A DNA stretch of 64,000 nt, taken from Saccharibacillus brassicae (lineage in GTDB: Bacteria; Bacillota; Bacilli; Paenibacillales; Paenibacillaceae). Below are positions 46,716 to 52,658 of the stretch, in pieces (the first letter of the stretch is position 1; every line of letters starts with the position of its first letter). The translations under genes were made by a program, and so were the position numbers. The stretch is taken from assembly GCF_006542275.1 (NCBI RefSeq), contig NZ_CP041217.1:2837501-2901500 (forward strand), written 5' to 3'. The notes under the pieces are model-generated. The model was not told the DNA's origin. It did not search any database and saw only the letters and a list, made by a program, of their open reading frames with translations.

Positions 46716-47792
46716 TCAGCCGTTGCGGACTCCGGCCTGCCGCGCGGACGGACGACCGGCCGGAGCCGCTTCGCGCAGCGCCGTTTTCCACGTGTCGTAG
46801 GCCCGCCACGCCGAACCGTCGTCGAGCAGCGGCTTGGCGGTATACACGCCTTCTTCGACCGAGCCGACCGCTCCGGCCAGATGTAGCCGCACCGCCGCGT
46901 TCAGCAGCGTCTGATTGTAATACGCCATATGGCCGCCGCCCTGCAGCACCGCTTCGAGCGTCTCGAATTGGCGGCGGGCCGTCCATTCGCCTTCTTCTTC
47001 GGGCATTTCCGTATCGAGCCCGTACGTCTCGGGATCGAGCAGATCCAGCTCGCACCGGCCGTCTTCTACCGTATGAATACGCGTCGGACGATGGATGAAC
47101 ACGTCTTCCGAGCCTTCGACGCCCTGGACGATCAGCGCTTTGCGGTAGCCGAGCCGGCTCACGAGCCGGGCCAGCCGGTCGATGACCGTATTATGGAACA
47201 CGCTCAGCACGAGATACGGCGAGCAGGCGTAATCGACCAATTTCTCCGCCGTGTTCAGCAGCGTGCGCATACCGAGTTCCTGACGGATGCCGTGCAGCTG
47301 CCCGAGCGGCGGGCACCATTTGGCGGAGTCGGCGAACAGGACGCCGCTCCGGTCCGCGGCCGCAATCGCGTCCGCGCGGCTCAGCGCAAGCGGATCGACG
47401 CCCGCCGCGCCGAGAATGTCGTGCAGCACGACGCCGTATTTGGGCGGCAGCGGCGCGGAGCCGTGCAGCGTCACCGGCACGCCGGCGGCGGCCGTCACGA
47501 ACGCGGTCGGCAGCGACGCCCAGAACGTTTTTTGCCGGCCGTCGTACGGCCCCGCGAAGTCGATGCCGGGCTTGCGGCATTCGCGGTAAGCCTGTGTACG
47601 GCAGACGGACACGAAAGCTTCCAGCTCTTCGACGCTTTCGAGCTTCAGCCGTTCGGCGATCAGGAAAGCGCCGGTCTGGGCCGGGGTCGACCGGCCGCCG
47701 AGGATCGCTTCCGCCGCTTCCAGCGATTCGCCGTAGTTCAGATCCCGCGCGCCGCGCTTGCCGCGGGCCACTTCTTTTAACAGATCGATCAT
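46716..47792 (-). CDS. TrpD2-like glycosyl transferase family protein (YbiB type)
   Basis: This 358-residue protein has the anthranilate phosphoribosyltransferase fold, yet lacks the strict TrpD motif GTGGD; the corresponding part reads LHGSAPLPPKYGVVLHDILG. Other marks are the N-terminal helical domain (ARGKRGARDLNYGESLEAAE, ILGGRSTPAQTGAFLIAERL) and VFHNTVIDRLARLVSRLGYR. TrpD2/YbiB proteins bind DNA non-specifically rather than make tryptophan. It follows the ANTAR regulator by 12 bp with a GGAGG site, so the two are one operon opposite the nitrite reductase operon. The pairing with nitrite assimilation suggests a role there, but no direct evidence is in the sequence. Confidence 0.82.
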   Translation of the reverse strand: MIDLLKEVARGKRGARDLNYGESLEAAEAILGGRSTPAQTGAFLIAERLKLESVEELEAFVSVCRTQAYRECRKPGIDFAGPYDGRQKTFWASLPTAFVTAAAGVPVTLHGSAPLPPKYGVVLHDILGAAGVDPLALSRADAIAAADRSGVLFADSAKWCPPLGQLHGIRQELGMRTLLNTAEKLVDYACSPYLVLSVFHNTVIDRLARLVSRLGYRKALIVQGVEGSEDVFIHRPTRIHTVEDGRCELDLLDPETYGLDTEMPEEEGEWTARRQFETLEAVLQGGGHMAYYNQTLLNAAVRLHLAGAVGSVEEGVYTAKPLLDDGSAWRAYDTWKTALREAAPAGRPSARQAGVRNG

Positions 47793-47804: not shown

Positions 47805-48398
47805 TTAGGACGGTTCGTGGAGAAGTTGATAGACTTTGACGATGGAGGTGGCGACGTCCACCATTCGTTTGCGTTCGTTCATGGCCTGCTTGCGCAGCAC
47901 GTCGTAGGCTTCGGATTCGGAAATGTTTTTGGTCTTGGACAGAATGCCTTTTGCCATATCGATCCATTTGCGTTCTTCGAGCCGGGCGAGCAGCTTCTCC
48001 CGCTCTTTGGCCCATTGGGCCCGCTCGTAGCATCGCCTGGCGCTGAAATGCAAAATCCAGTGCATTTCGGACGGCTGCATGGAAGGAGAGAGGATGCCGT
48101 CGATTCGCACGTCGTCTTCGCAGGCGGAGACGGACAGGTCGGCTGTTGCGGATGTGCACCACCAGAGGACAGGCACGGTCTTGCGGGACATTAACAGATC
48201 GGCCCAGCCGTTCATTTCCGTCAGGGGCAGCGCGAGCACGGCGGCATCCGTTGCGCCGACGCGGTCGAATGCTTCTTCGCGCGTGCCCGCCGATTCGATC
48301 AAATAGCCGCATCCGCCGAGCAGGCGGGCAGGCCCCGCTTCGTCCCTGCCGGAATCGGCGGCCGCGGAAGAATGGTGCACGATCAATAGGCTGTGCAT
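47805..48398 (-). CDS. ANTAR domain-containing antitermination regulator
   Basis: A 197-residue protein with a C-terminal ANTAR RNA-binding domain (about residues 140-195): LEERKWIDMAKGILSKTKNI, then SEAYDVLRKQAMNERKRMVD and VATSIVKV, with the conserved A-K-G-I-L and A-M-x-x-x-x-M. The first 125 residues look like a receiver-type or pseudo-receiver domain (LPLTEMNGWADLLMSRKTVP), without a clear phosphorylated Asp. ANTAR proteins bind paired hexaloop RNA hairpins and prevent termination. Exactly such a pair lies in the leader of the divergent nirB gene (48571-48614), so nirB is probably its target. The start at 48398 has AAGGAGAG in front. TrpD2 follows 12 bp behind. Confidence 0.9.
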   Translation of the reverse strand: MHSLLIVHHSSAAADSGRDEAGPARLLGGCGYLIESAGTREEAFDRVGATDAAVLALPLTEMNGWADLLMSRKTVPVLWWCTSATADLSVSACEDDVRIDGILSPSMQPSEMHWILHFSARRCYERAQWAKEREKLLARLEERKWIDMAKGILSKTKNISESEAYDVLRKQAMNERKRMVDVATSIVKVYQLLHEPS

Positions 48399-48512
48399 GG
48401 ACGACTCTCCTTATATTCAGAATCCTTTCCGTCAGGTCTAAGCTGCGTGTGTGACTTTATATAACATGAAAAATGGCGTTTTGTCGACAATTTTACTTAA
48501 TCAATTTTTTAA

Positions 48513-48529
48513 TGTCAAAGTTGTTGACA
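48513..48529 (+). promoter_or_regulatory. GlnR/TnrA-type nitrogen box
   Basis: The 17 bases TGTCAAAGTTGTTGACA match the GlnR/TnrA consensus TGTNAN7TNACA at every fixed position. It overlaps the -35 element of the nirB promoter, a position expected for repression by GlnR or related protein when nitrogen is plentiful. Confidence 0.75.
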
Positions 48530-48552
48530 TGTAAATCATCTTCCGGTATAGT
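48524..48552 (+). promoter_or_regulatory. nirB promoter
   Basis: TTGACA (48524-48529) and TATAGT (48547-48552) with a 17-bp spacer; a start site near 48559 is expected. The leader to the nirB ATG is about 195 bases. Confidence 0.8.
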
Positions 48553-48570
48553 CGGACTCAAGAAATGATA

Positions 48571-48614
48571 CGGATACAACGATGTGTCCGATTGAAGCGG
48601 CAATGGCGCCTGCT
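48571..48614 (+). promoter_or_regulatory. Paired hexaloop ANTAR target hairpins in the nirB leader
   Basis: Hairpin 1 pairs CGGATAC (48571-48577) with GTGTCCG (48584-48590) around the hexaloop AACGAT. Hairpin 2 pairs AGCGGC (48596-48601) with GCCTGCT (48608-48614, one bulge) around the hexaloop AATGGC. Both loops have A at position 1 and G at position 4, the bases shared by ANTAR targets. Five bases separate the hairpins. The 3' arm of hairpin 2 is also the 5' arm of the following terminator, so binding of the ANTAR protein would block termination. Confidence 0.82.
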
Positions 48615-48683
48615 CTCACCTGAACAAGCAACGGGAAACGTATGTTTTCCGAAGCGGGTGGAGCGGGCTGTTTGCGTTTTTCC
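48608..48683 (+). terminator. Conditional terminator in the nirB leader
   Basis: GCCTGCTCTCACC (48608-48620) pairs with GGTGGAGCGGGC (48657-48668) with one wobble pair and one bulge. A smaller hairpin (CGGGAAAC with GTTTTCCG around GTAT) sits in the loop, and TGTTTGCGTTTTT follows. Confidence 0.78.
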
Positions 48684-48754
48684 GTCCGATACATCCGTCT
48701 CGCAAGCCTATCTCGTCCAATCCCGATTTCCCTCTCTGGAAGGAGCGATTCCAT

Positions 48755-51259
48755 ATGACAAACGAACGCAAAAAGCTGGTGCTGGTCGGCAACGGAATGG
48801 CAGGCGTCCGCACGATCGAACATCTGCTCAAATTGGCGCCGGACTTATACGACATTACCATATTCGGTGCGGAGCCGCATCCGAACTATAACCGCATCAT
48901 GCTCTCTTCGGTACTGGCCGGCGGCGCAAGCCTGGAAGAGATCGTCATCAACGACCTCGACTGGTACCGGGAGAACGGCATTACGCTCCATATGGGACAG
49001 GCGATCTCGCGGATCGACGGCGAACGCCGCCGGGTGTACGCCGAAGGCGGCATCGAAGCGGACTACGACGAACTTATCTTGGCGACCGGCTCCAACGCGT
49101 TCATCCTGCCGGTTCCCGGCGCCGACAAGGAAGGCGTCATCGGCTTCCGCGACATCAAGGACTGCCAGGCGATGCAGGAAGCGTCCCGCAAGCACCGGAA
49201 GGCGGCCGTGATCGGCGGCGGCCTGCTCGGCCTCGAAGCGGCGCGCGGCCTGCTGAACCTCGGCATGGATGTGACCGTCATCCATATCAACGAATACCTG
49301 ATGGAACGCCAGCTCGACCGTCCCGCTTCGATCATGCTCCAGCAGGAGCTTGAAGCGCAGGGCATGAAGTTCCTGCTCAAGAAGCAGACGGAGTCGGTGC
49401 TCGGCAAGCAGCGGGCGAAGGGACTGCTGTTCAAGGACGGAAGCATGCTCGAAGCGGACCTCGTCGTCATGGCGGTCGGCATACGCCCGAACGTGTCTTT
49501 GGCGCAGCGCAGCGGCCTTGCCGTAGAGCGCGGCATCGTCGTCGACGACCATATGCGCACCAATCTGCCGGGCGTGTACGCCGTCGGCGAATGCGCGCAG
49601 CACCGGGGCATCGCCTACGGACTCGTCGCGCCGCTGTACGAACAGGGCGCGGTGCTGGCCAAGAACCTGGCCGGCGTGCCGGTCGAAGGCTACGCCGGAT
49701 CGGTCACTTCGACGAAGCTCAAAGTGTCGGGCGTCGACGTCTTCTCCGGAGGCATCTTCACCGAGCCGGAAGGCGCTCGGGCGCTCCGGTACCAGGACGA
49801 GATCGAAGGCGTGTACAAAAAGCTCGTCATTCTCGACAACCGGCTGATCGGCGCCGTCTTGTTCGGCGAGACGGGCGAAGGCGCCGCGCTGTTCTCGCTC
49901 ATCAAGAGCGGAGAGAGCATCGCCGGACGGGAAAAGGAACTGCTGCTCGGCCTGCCCGCGGATGCGCTTGCTGCCGGAGGCGGTGCGGCGGCGCGGCTCG
50001 AAGCCATGCCGACCGACGAGATCGTCTGCGGCTGCAACGGCGTCTCCAAAGGCGATATCGTCGCCGCGATCGACGGAGGCTGCAACAGCCTCGGCCAGAT
50101 CAAAGGCTGCACCAAAGCGTCCGCTTCCTGCGGCGGCTGCAAGCCGCTCGTGGAAGGACTGCTTCAATTATACGCCGGCGACGCCGCGGTGACGGTGAAG
50201 GAAGGCATCTGCGGCTGCACGACGCACAGCCGCGACGAGATCGTGGCCGAGATCAAGCGCATGGGCCTCAAGACGGTCAAGGAAGTCATGAACGTGCTGG
50301 AATGGAACAACGACGAAGGCTGCTCCAAGTGCCGGCCGTCGCTCAATTATTATCTGGGCATGCTGTGGCCGACGGAATACAAGGACGAGAAGGAATCCCG
50401 CTTCGCCAACGAACGGTATCACGCCAATATTCAAAAAGACGGCACGTATTCGGTCATCCCGCGCATCTACGGCGGCGTCACGTCGCCGACCGAGCTGAAG
50501 CGGATCGCCGAAGTCGCGGAGAAGTTCGACGTGCCGCTCGTCAAGTTCACGGGCGGACAGCGCCTCGATCTGCTCGGCGTGAAGAAGGAAGACCTGCCGG
50601 GCGTCTGGGAAGCGCTGGACATGCCTTCGGGCCACGGCTACGGCAAGGCGCTGCGCACCGTCAAGACGTGCGTCGGCTCGACCTTCTGCCGCTTCGGCAC
50701 GCAGGACGCGATGGGTATGGGCGTCCGGCTCGAGAAAGCGTTCGAGCGTATGAACGCACCGGCCAAAGTGAAGCTCGCCGTCTCCGGCTGCCCGCGCAAC
50801 TGCGCGGAAGCGACGGTCAAAGACTTCGGCGTCGTGGCGGTCGACGGCGGCTGGGAGCTGCATGTCGGCGGCAATGCCGGCATCCACGTCCGGGCGACCG
50901 ACCTGCTCGGCTTCGTGAAAACGGACGACGAGGTCGAAGAGTGGGCGAGCGCGTTCCTTCAATATTATCGGGAAAACGCGACGTGGAACGAGCGCACCGC
51001 GCCGTGGGTAGAGCGCGTCGGCCTGGAGCACGTCAAGCAGGTGCTGAGCGACGAAGGCGAGCGCAAAGCGCTGCATGCCCGACTGCGCGAAACGCTGGAC
51101 CGGACGGTCGATCCGTGGAAACAGATCGTCAGCGAGCCGGAACTGCGCAAAAATTTCGAGCGTCTCCCGGTAGCCGCGGCCATTTCGGCGCAGGGCGAAG
51201 GAAGTACGCAAGGGAAATCGGACAGCCGGAACGCATCGGACAAGGAGGAATCGGCATGA
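48755..51259 (+). CDS. nirB: Nitrite reductase [NAD(P)H] large subunit
   Basis: This 834-residue enzyme (NasD in B. subtilis) reduces nitrite to ammonium. Domains: an FAD/NAD(P)H reductase (about 1-320: VGNGMAGVRTIEHL, ILATGSNAFILPVPGADKEG, VIGGGLLGLEAARGL), two BFD-type [2Fe-2S] domains (CGCNGVSKGDIVAAIDGG with C-x-G-C, then ICGCTTHSRDEIVAEIKRMG with DEGCSKCRPS), and the siroheme/4Fe-4S sulfite/nitrite reductase domain. There C-x5-C in TCVGSTFCRFG and C-x3-C in SGCPRNCAE bind the cofactors. The C-terminus extends about 30 residues. A GGAAGGAGCGATTCC site precedes the ATG. It is first in nirB-nirD-FNT-SUMT, under dual control in its leader. Confidence 0.97.
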   Translation: MTNERKKLVLVGNGMAGVRTIEHLLKLAPDLYDITIFGAEPHPNYNRIMLSSVLAGGASLEEIVINDLDWYRENGITLHMGQAISRIDGERRRVYAEGGIEADYDELILATGSNAFILPVPGADKEGVIGFRDIKDCQAMQEASRKHRKAAVIGGGLLGLEAARGLLNLGMDVTVIHINEYLMERQLDRPASIMLQQELEAQGMKFLLKKQTESVLGKQRAKGLLFKDGSMLEADLVVMAVGIRPNVSLAQRSGLAVERGIVVDDHMRTNLPGVYAVGECAQHRGIAYGLVAPLYEQGAVLAKNLAGVPVEGYAGSVTSTKLKVSGVDVFSGGIFTEPEGARALRYQDEIEGVYKKLVILDNRLIGAVLFGETGEGAALFSLIKSGESIAGREKELLLGLPADALAAGGGAAARLEAMPTDEIVCGCNGVSKGDIVAAIDGGCNSLGQIKGCTKASASCGGCKPLVEGLLQLYAGDAAVTVKEGICGCTTHSRDEIVAEIKRMGLKTVKEVMNVLEWNNDEGCSKCRPSLNYYLGMLWPTEYKDEKESRFANERYHANIQKDGTYSVIPRIYGGVTSPTELKRIAEVAEKFDVPLVKFTGGQRLDLLGVKKEDLPGVWEALDMPSGHGYGKALRTVKTCVGSTFCRFGTQDAMGMGVRLEKAFERMNAPAKVKLAVSGCPRNCAEATVKDFGVVAVDGGWELHVGGNAGIHVRATDLLGFVKTDDEVEEWASAFLQYYRENATWNERTAPWVERVGLEHVKQVLSDEGERKALHARLRETLDRTVDPWKQIVSEPELRKNFERLPVAAAISAQGEGSTQGKSDSRNASDKEESA

Positions 51260-51618
51260 GCCACGCAGCGGAACAAGTACGGGTAGGCCGATTGAGCGAC
51301 ATCGATCCGCAGGGATCGCGCCGCCTGAATATCAACGGACTGGAGATCGCGCTGTTCCGGCTCTCGGACGGCGAAGTGCTGGCGGTGGAGAACCGCTGCC
51401 CGCACAAAGGCGGGGTGCTGTCGGAAGGCATGGTCTGCGGGCCGGTCGTCCATTGTCCGCTGCACGACTGGCGCATCGACCTGCGCAGCGGCGAAGCGCT
51501 CGATCCCGACAAAGGCTGCGTCACGACGTTCCGGACCGAAGTCGAAGCCGACGGCACGATTCTGCTCACCCTGAACGGAGAGACCGAAGACGAAGGACGA
51601 GACAGCCATATCGCGTAA
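51256..51618 (+). CDS. nirD: Nitrite reductase small subunit, Rieske type
   Basis: This 120-residue subunit has the Rieske-like fold. Cys48 and His50 (RCPHKGG) plus Cys67 and His70 (HCPLHDWRID) form the C-x-H and C-x-x-H motifs of a [2Fe-2S] centre. The spacing and length fit NirD/NasE, and this member keeps all four ligands, which some NirD proteins lack. It overlaps nirB by four bases (ATGA) behind AAGGAGGAA. Confidence 0.94.
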   Translation: MSHAAEQVRVGRLSDIDPQGSRRLNINGLEIALFRLSDGEVLAVENRCPHKGGVLSEGMVCGPVVHCPLHDWRIDLRSGEALDPDKGCVTTFRTEVEADGTILLTLNGETEDEGRDSHIA

Positions 51619-51686: not shown

Positions 51687-52658
51687 ATGGATTACGTCAA
51701 ACCGGCCGAAGTGCGGCAAACGATGATCGACACAGGCAAGGCCAAAGCGGAATTGACGACGTCGCAGCTGTTGATTCGAAGCGGATTGGCGGGGGCGATT
51801 CTGGCCTGCGCGACGACGCTTGCCATGACGGCATCGGCGCAGACGGGCATACCGATGGTCGGCGCGCTGCTGTTTCCCGTCGGCTTCGTCATCATCGTCT
51901 TATTGGGACTGGAGCTGGTCACCGGCAGTTTTGCCCTGATCCCGCTGGCCGTGCTGGAGAGAAAAACGACGGTCAAAGCGATGCTCAAAAATTACGGCTG
52001 GGTCATCATCGGCCATCTGATCGGCTGCGGCCTGTACGCGCTCGCCTACGTGTTCGTGGCCACGAAAGCGGGAAGCGACTTGTCCAACCCGCTGATCGCG
52101 ACGATCGTCGGCGCCAGCGAAGCCAAGACGACCGCCTATCAAGCGCTCGGCGCAGGCGGCATGCTGCTCGTCTTCGTCAAAGCGATCCTCTGCAACTGGA
52201 TGGTGACGCTCGGCGCGGTCATGGCGATGACGTCCAAATCGACAGGTGGCAAAATAGCGGCGATGTGGCTGCCGATCCTCATCTTCTTCGGACAGGGCTT
52301 CGAGCACACCGTCGTCAATATGTTCGTGATTCCGGCGGGCATGCTGCTCGGCGCGAACGTAAGCGGCATGGAATGGCTCGTCTGGAACGGCATTCCCGTG
52401 CTGCTCGGCAACTTCGTCGGCGGTGCGCTGCTGACCGGACTGCTGCTCTATTGGGGGCAAAAATCGGGCGGAACCGGCAGCCCGGCGGCGGAACCGGAGC
52501 AATCCCCGTCTGCGGGCAGCCTGACACACGCAGCGTCCGCGGCGCCGGGTACGCCGATCTCCGCGGCCGCCGCAGTCCGCCCTGCCTTACCGGCCGCGGC
52601 GGGCACATTCGTCTACGCCGAACCGCTCCGCGCCGCCTCGCTGGAGGACAGACGATGA
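51687..52658 (+). CDS. Formate/nitrite transporter family protein (NirC-like)
   Basis: This 323-residue FNT channel moves nitrite (or formate) across the membrane. Six helices span about residues 30-255. The family marks are VTGSFALIPLAVLERKTT, LCNWMVTLGAVMAMTSKSTG and FGQGFEHTVVNMFVIPAGML, with the central His of the FNT pore. The last 70 residues are a hydrophilic Ala/Pro/Ser-rich tail that most NirC proteins lack. A GCGAGGGATACCG site precedes the ATG. It stands between nirD and the siroheme gene, so nitrite uptake is the likely job. Confidence 0.92.
   Translation: MDYVKPAEVRQTMIDTGKAKAELTTSQLLIRSGLAGAILACATTLAMTASAQTGIPMVGALLFPVGFVIIVLLGLELVTGSFALIPLAVLERKTTVKAMLKNYGWVIIGHLIGCGLYALAYVFVATKAGSDLSNPLIATIVGASEAKTTAYQALGAGGMLLVFVKAILCNWMVTLGAVMAMTSKSTGGKIAAMWLPILIFFGQGFEHTVVNMFVIPAGMLLGANVSGMEWLVWNGIPVLLGNFVGGALLTGLLLYWGQKSGGTGSPAAEPEQSPSAGSLTHAASAAPGTPISAAAAVRPALPAAAGTFVYAEPLRAASLEDRR

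Follow-up and report, generated by a model that had tools for sequence, protein, structure and literature searches.

How is transcription of nirB controlled in Saccharibacillus brassicae, and does the gene transcribed away from it on the opposite strand take part in that control? Nitrate assimilation in Bacilli is usually described through promoter regulators such as TnrA, GlnR and ResDE. The window that we analyzed is a stretch of 64,000 nucleotides from the S. brassicae contig NZ_CP041217.1, in which a divergent intergenic region of 356 bp separates nirB on the plus strand from a gene for an ANTAR protein on the minus strand. A sequence-only reading had placed in this region a nirB leader with a GlnR box and a pair of hexaloop hairpins overlapping a terminator, and its coordinates hold. 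We propose that the nirB leader is an ANTAR-type transcription-antitermination switch and that the same protein would act on further leaders, a reading to which we give a probability of roughly 87%. The predicted antitermination is well supported by the sequence, and we infer the ligand and the action in vivo.

The nirB gene (48755..51259, plus strand) encodes a nitrite reductase large subunit of 834 aa that matched TIGR02374 with 1015 bits. It is followed on the same strand by a reading frame for a nirD-like small subunit (51256..51618), which was assigned from its position and sequence and whose start codon overlaps the nirB stop codon, and by a nirC-like gene for a formate/nitrite transporter (51687..52658; Form_Nir_trans, 5.9e-62). 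The ANTAR gene (47805..48398, minus strand) encodes a protein of 197 aa with a degenerate pseudo-receiver and an ANTAR domain (residues 134-187). A TrpD2/YbiB-like gene (46716..47792, minus strand; Pfam Glycos_transf_3) lies 12 bp behind it and is probably co-transcribed with it.

Promoter-like sites were found on both strands of the intergenic region, a sigma-70-type TTGACA-17-TATAGT directed toward nirB (48524..48552, plus strand) and a TTGACA-17-TAAAAT directed toward the ANTAR gene (48490..48518, minus strand), compared to 0.5 such sites expected from shuffles. A perfect GlnR/TnrA box, TGTCAAAGTTGTTGACA (48513..48529; TGTCA-N7-TGACA), contains both divergent -35 elements, and a second perfect box, TGTGACTTTATATAACA, is located at 48450..48466; the sequence-only reading had mentioned neither the shared -35 position nor this second box. 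The consensus used was TGTNA-N7-TNACA from the accessible part of PMC3412718, which also predicts GlnR sites upstream of nasDEF, among them a site in Paenibacillus sp. JDR-2. Upstream of the first leader hairpin (P1, described below), 81 of 81 leaders from this and related genomes had at least one perfect box and 36 of them had two, compared to 0.008 per mononucleotide-shuffled leader; a TTGACA-N15-19-TATANT promoter or a near variant was matched in 49 of the 81. Since the predicted box at 48513-48529 overlaps both -35 elements, the arrangement suggests that GlnR represses from this site. As the single palindromic box sits at both -35 elements, binding of one GlnR dimer could shut off the regulator gene along with its target.

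Downstream of the nirB promoter-like site, the leader holds two hairpins with six-base loops. Hairpin P1 (48571..48590, plus strand), CGGATAC[AACGAT]GTGTCCG, has 7 pairs and the hexaloop AACGAT. Hairpin P2 (48596..48614, plus strand), AGCGGC[AATGGC]GCC(T)GCT, is the predicted antiterminator; it has 6 pairs, a bulged T and the loop AATGGC at 48602-48607. An A at loop position 1 and a G at position 4 (A1/G4) are present in both hexaloops, as the sequence-only reading had observed. The hairpins are followed by an intrinsic terminator (48606..48681, plus strand), in which the segment at approximately 48606-48622 pairs with 48656-48668 and is succeeded by the U-rich tail TGTTTGCGTTTTT (48669-48681). 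The 5' arm of this terminator is the 3' arm of P2 (48606-48622), which confirms the earlier claim that the terminator uses that arm of the second hairpin. A search of Rfam gave no match above the curated threshold across the window and none in the leader up to an E-value of 10.

The segment 48549-48700 folded with -60.8 kcal/mol, compared to -44.0 +/- 3.9 kcal/mol in dinucleotide shuffles (4.3 sd better), and its minimum free energy structure was the terminator form. A transcript truncated 5' of the terminator 3' arm folded as P1 and P2, a fold that is weak when taken alone (z -1.6; 12 of 200 shuffles were equally good). Forcing P1 and P2 in the nirB leader cost 9.2 kcal/mol relative to the terminator form (-41.9 vs -51.1 kcal/mol), and this greater stability of the terminator form fits the requirement of a default-off switch.

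A scan of GTDB genomes with the ANTAR alignment gave 188 confirmed relatives, of which the best 80 served as named loci; most of these belong to Saccharibacillus, Paenibacillus and Cohnella. In 79 of these 80 loci, nirB and the ANTAR gene are transcribed divergently; in the exception, Paenibacillus hemerocallicola (L078, also L154), no nirB match was found beside the ANTAR gene and the leader is kept before nirC. A lack of A1 and G4 conservation in orthologous leaders had been named beforehand as a result that would refute the antitermination reading; both bases were kept in both loops in 80 of the 80 leaders divergent from the ANTAR gene, as determined with a pattern that left the loop bases free. 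The free pattern gave 80 matches in the 80 leaders and 12 more elsewhere in the same loci, and the pattern requiring A1 and G4 gave 80 matches in 1.67 Mb (both strands), one per leader and zero elsewhere. A hairpin scan demanding at least 5 pairs missed 11 of the 80 leaders (no pair in 10, a false pair in one), all of which were recovered by the pattern.

Covariation was evaluated in 81 aligned leaders, 75 of them distinct. P1 was paired in 99.0% of cells and both sides changed in 3 of its 7 pairs, with compensatory changes at one pair comprising A-U in 41 leaders, G-C in 26 and G-U in 8. P2 was paired in 91.4% of cells and its three inner pairs were invariant; little variation is expected of an arm that is used in two structures, and the covariation of P2 consequently says little. 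The covariation score of the two-hairpin structure was 0.193, compared to 0.120 in shuffled alignments, and none of 500 shuffles reached it; changes on both sides were counted in 49 cells over the whole structure, compared to 14.3 in shuffles. With a set of 32 deliberately diverse leaders, both sides changed in 5 of the 7 P1 pairs and three of five measures exceeded all shuffles, while the number of pairs changing on both sides and the further pair types were not above all shuffles. A terminator overlapping P2 (at least 7 contiguous pairs and a T-rich tail) was present in 68 of the 81 leaders, compared to 47 of 1620 shuffled ones. The other 13 leaders fell below the 7-pair criterion; visual inspection showed an interrupted stem or a poorer tail in at least two of them (L069 and L099).

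The covariance search that had been proposed for related leaders was carried out in a family sample of 148 genomes, evenly drawn from a larger group and, judged by the genome labels, identical in each search. Model R1 was built from the nirB leaders of clade 1 (one of the 81 lies before nirC). The ANTAR protein was found at E < 1e-30 in 98 of the 148 genomes, and 117 genomes gave some match at an E-value of 0.001. Both R1 and the second model, R2, were trained partly on leaders of species that were later searched, which in part predetermines the counts of nirB leaders. The R2 motif at E <= 0.003 was recovered in 96 of the 148 genomes, all 96 among the 98 with the ANTAR gene, and it lay divergently upstream of that gene, 146-433 nt away, in 96 of the 98. 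No R2 match at this threshold was obtained in the 50 of 148 genomes without the nirB-linked ANTAR gene. A less circular check is given by R1, whose training leaders all came from clade 1: at E <= 0.01 it recovered 9 of the 26 leaders in clade 2, and it also found the non-nirB leaders described below. At the same threshold R1 matched in 84 genomes of the sample, four of which have no such ANTAR gene (G023, G048, G092 and G146); three of these four matches lay over coding sequence and one in a simple repeat, and we judged them to be chance matches. The weak R1 matches rejected as chance were L121 and L126-L128 (coding sequence) and L129 (simple repeat), and the R2 match L142 (E 0.073) was rejected as well. 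The non-adjacent R1 match G035:C1 has an E-value of 0.0086. Across the order, R2 at E <= 0.001 matched in 149 of 296 genomes, 33 of them outside the family. The ANTAR gene adjoined the motif in 9 of the 9 loci inspected from these 33 genomes (L153-L160 and L167); three of the nine (L153, L154 and L155) were apparently already among the named loci, and two of these three were in the R2 training set.

The element is also found before other genes of the pathway. R1, derived from nirB leaders, found leaders of nasB, narK and moeA-nasB. Its second match in the genome of the window (G000:C1:4577500, E 0.027) is the nasB-nasC leader, which is divergent from a NarK-family gene and has the loops AATGGC and AGCGCA and a terminator that shares P2. 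Toward narK, that intergenic region also showed this layout by eye, with the loops AACGCT and AATGAG, the terminator GCGGCCTTTT and a mismatch in P1; this narK leader was not recovered by R2 at an E-value of 0.1. The narK-nasB intergenic region of this genome carries two GlnR boxes with one mismatch each, and no perfect box was found in it. Among the 148 genomes, 21 R2 matches were located far from the ANTAR gene, all in genomes that have this gene: 12 before nasB, 7 before moeA-nasB (for 3 of these, Pfam confirmed MoeA) and 2 before narK. Five of the 21 were in the R2 training set and 16 outside it. Leaders flanked the narK/nasB intergenic region on both sides in three genomes (L122, L140 and L141), the narK-side leader of L122 with a score of E 0.048 only. 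The presence of the element before nasBC, before narK (by eye) and before moeA in relatives indicates that the predicted ANTAR leaders form a nitrate-assimilation regulon that extends beyond nirB. With one regulator and several leaders, such a regulon is predictable from sequence, and numerous members of a single order seem to have a second, RNA-level decision at several steps of the pathway. Members of Paenibacillus are used as plant-growth bacteria, which makes their use of soil nitrate a matter of practical interest.

The product of the divergent gene matched the ANTAR domain PF03861 with 67.9 bits, compared to a curated cut-off of 27.3, bearing out the assignment in the sequence-only reading, and it is the sole ANTAR match found in the 5.62-Mb genome. 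An AlphaFold2 model of the protein had a mean pLDDT of 79.7 and a pTM of 0.57. The best Foldseek match of the model was RNA-bound EutV (6ww6; E 9e-7, TM 0.55), followed by EutV 6wsh, AmiR 1qo0 and then FixJ and Rv1626, with TM values that are moderate. In a hand-counted comparison with the EutV alignment, 10 of the 11 RNA-contact residues named in the accessible part of PMC8934654 were identical (R143, K144, K150, E161, Y165, R169, M173, N174, R176 and R178), and K147 corresponds to M148 here. The available portion of PMC7496416 assigns an important role in RNA binding to R340 and K347 of NasR; with a tag offset of 27 in the PDB chain, an assumption that fits W362, these residues align with R143 and K150.

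On reading the EutV and Rv1626 alignments, we saw neither the phospho-acceptor Asp nor the conserved Lys that receivers carry, and none of 14 aligned orthologs has them. We therefore rejected phosphorylation of the ANTAR protein, since the acceptor Asp is missing. Six residues of the pseudo-receiver (P76, W79, C81, D100, G101 and M107) were invariant in 7 aligned proteins from two clades. By its predicted features, the regulator is a pseudo-receiver ANTAR protein of the AmiR/NasT sort, with no NasS detected.

In the mechanism that we propose, RNA polymerase would start at the promoter at 48524-48552, with GlnR presumably limiting initiation when nitrogen is plentiful, and the nascent leader would fold P1 first and P2 next. 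If no active ANTAR protein is present, the stronger terminator would take over the 3' arm of P2 and transcription would stop before nirB. In the presence of nitrate or nitrite, the presumed signals, a dimer of the neighboring pseudo-receiver ANTAR protein would bind the two hexaloops and keep P2 closed; the terminator would not form, and nirBD and the genes behind it would be transcribed. Readthrough into nirB would in this way be controlled by the ANTAR protein, as had been suggested, and the same protein would act on the leaders before nasBC and narK, giving the nitrate-assimilation regulon. We infer the binding of the protein, its dimerization, the direction of the effect, the ligand and the sign of the GlnR control.

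We considered whether the leader could work without the protein. By itself, the RNA can adopt two folds that exclude each other, which would suit a protein-independent attenuator or riboswitch responding to a ligand or to transcription speed, with the ANTAR gene as an unrelated neighbor; the lack of an Rfam match leaves room for a new riboswitch. This explanation is highly unlikely in view of the 50 genomes that lack the ANTAR gene and gave nothing with R2 at E <= 0.003, and of the confinement of all 21 distant matches to genomes having the gene. Furthermore, the loop bases that never vary are the ones required by ANTAR proteins according to the accessible sections of PMC3369931, and the conserved part consists of two small hairpins, which offers little for an aptamer.

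If the ANTAR protein does bind the leader, it might act mainly on translation or RNA stability and not on termination. Section 10 of PMC3369931 describes ANTAR elements close to ribosome-binding sites, and 13 of the 81 leaders here fail the terminator criterion. However, the U-tract of the nirB leader ends ~57 nt before the RBS-like GGAAGGAG at 48738, and P2 overlaps a U-tailed stem in 68 of the 81 leaders, with the imperfect stems or tails noted above in at least two of the others; we regard an effect mainly on translation or stability as very unlikely. The receiver-like fold of the ANTAR protein would also suit a regulator switched by a histidine kinase, as EutV is switched by EutW, but the acceptor Asp and conserved Lys that are missing here are likewise missing in 14 of 14 aligned orthologs, making a kinase input very improbable. 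Antitermination by the ANTAR protein is our preferred reading.

That reading raises a sharp question: how does a pseudo-receiver ANTAR protein with no known sensor read nitrogen oxyanions? The earlier reading had described the locus as a NasR/EutV-type layout. The arrangement of a dual hairpin and a terminator agrees with this description; the regulator departs from it in having no NIT match, although the controls gave none either, and no EutV-like phospho-receiver. ANTAR was the only Pfam domain found in the protein, and a NIT search of the genome gave no match, as did the same search in 14 control genomes. We found no cytosolic NasS-like gene among the neighbors that were placed or among the above-cut-off matches to PF13379. 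The only protein above that cut-off (L034) looked lipoprotein-like by eye and is encoded beside an ABC-transporter gene, and it was rejected as a NasS candidate; PF13379 also gave a match below the cut-off (L033).

In each of the 80 named loci, the ANTAR gene is immediately followed by the TrpD2-like gene, which also occurs in 8 of 9 loci from other families and in L161 of genome G104. Its product matched TrpD and YbiB chains in the PDB. The accessible part of PMC10123104 presents the E. coli relative YbiB as a TrpD2 protein that binds DNA and interacts with ObgE. The gene was absent within 0.9-1.4 kb downstream of the ANTAR gene in 5 of 5 clade-2 loci, and in 8 of 8 clade-2 genomes tested the only TrpD2 match was 27-29% identical, about as distant as the second match in the genome of the window, which is TrpD-like (30%). 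The idea of TrpD2 as an obligate partner is weakened by its absence from clade 2, and a partnership with the TrpD2/YbiB-like protein is a possible lead only. Redox sensing by a C81/C93 cysteine pair is weakened as well, since 4 of 4 clade-2 proteins keep C81 and not C93. As a tentative and rather doubtful extension, the Paenibacillales might hold a third ANTAR-nitrate wiring that does without a NIT fusion and without a NasS partner; either the pseudo-receiver or the co-encoded TrpD2/YbiB-like protein would then be the sensor of nitrate, nitrite or redox/NO and would switch leaders throughout the pathway (transport, nitrate reductase, molybdenum cofactor and nitrite reductase).

Among known systems, the NasR/nasF leader of Klebsiella oxytoca shares an ANTAR protein, two A1/G4 hexaloops, a terminator overlapping P2 and nitrate/nitrite assimilation genes as targets (PMC3369931, as far as its accessible text goes). 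Unlike the pseudo-receiver protein described here, NasR fuses a NIT sensor to the ANTAR domain. The N-terminus of NasT is of the receiver type. The NasS-NasT system of Paracoccus, Azotobacter and Pseudomonas (available portion of PMC3795266) is similar in having a sensor that is not fused to the ANTAR regulator and nitrate-assimilation targets; it differs in that no cytosolic NasS-like gene was found here among the neighbors tested or by Pfam, and in belonging to Proteobacteria, not Paenibacillales. EutV and the eut leaders of Enterococcus faecalis provide the closest solved structure (6ww6, with RNA), the 10 of 11 shared RNA contacts and a precedent for several leaders per pathway. In contrast to the present protein, which has no phospho-Asp, EutV is phosphorylated by EutW (PMC7496416, accessible part), and it serves another pathway. 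The same RNA motif was predicted in a search of 1902 genomes by Ramesh et al. 2012 (PMC3369931), where section 10 names nitrite reductase and nitrate/nitrite transporters among the genes with predicted ANTAR elements. The word Paenibacillus has no occurrence in the accessible text of that paper, and its Table S2 may already list some of these leaders. Because the element and its mechanism are established there, the present system is not new in kind; its signal input is possibly new. In openly searchable literature, covering titles and the starts of abstracts and leaving subscription papers and supplements outside, no description of the present system was found among the matches listed.

A few loci deviate from the common arrangement. 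The two of the 98 ANTAR-gene genomes without an adjacent motif are G104 and G033. In G104 (L161), the ANTAR gene, TrpD2 and nirB are present; by eye, a deletion seems to have taken out the leader and the beginning of nirB, which may make this a naturally leaderless locus. In G033 (L162), the ANTAR gene is followed by narK on the same strand, and the stretch examined gave no match to nirB. Genus g6 carries a different ANTAR protein, which matches in the ANTAR domain only (~40 bits). In two loci from another family of the order (L158 and L160), narK is divergent to the ANTAR gene, and its leader shows, by eye, an apparent second hairpin pair just downstream of the first.
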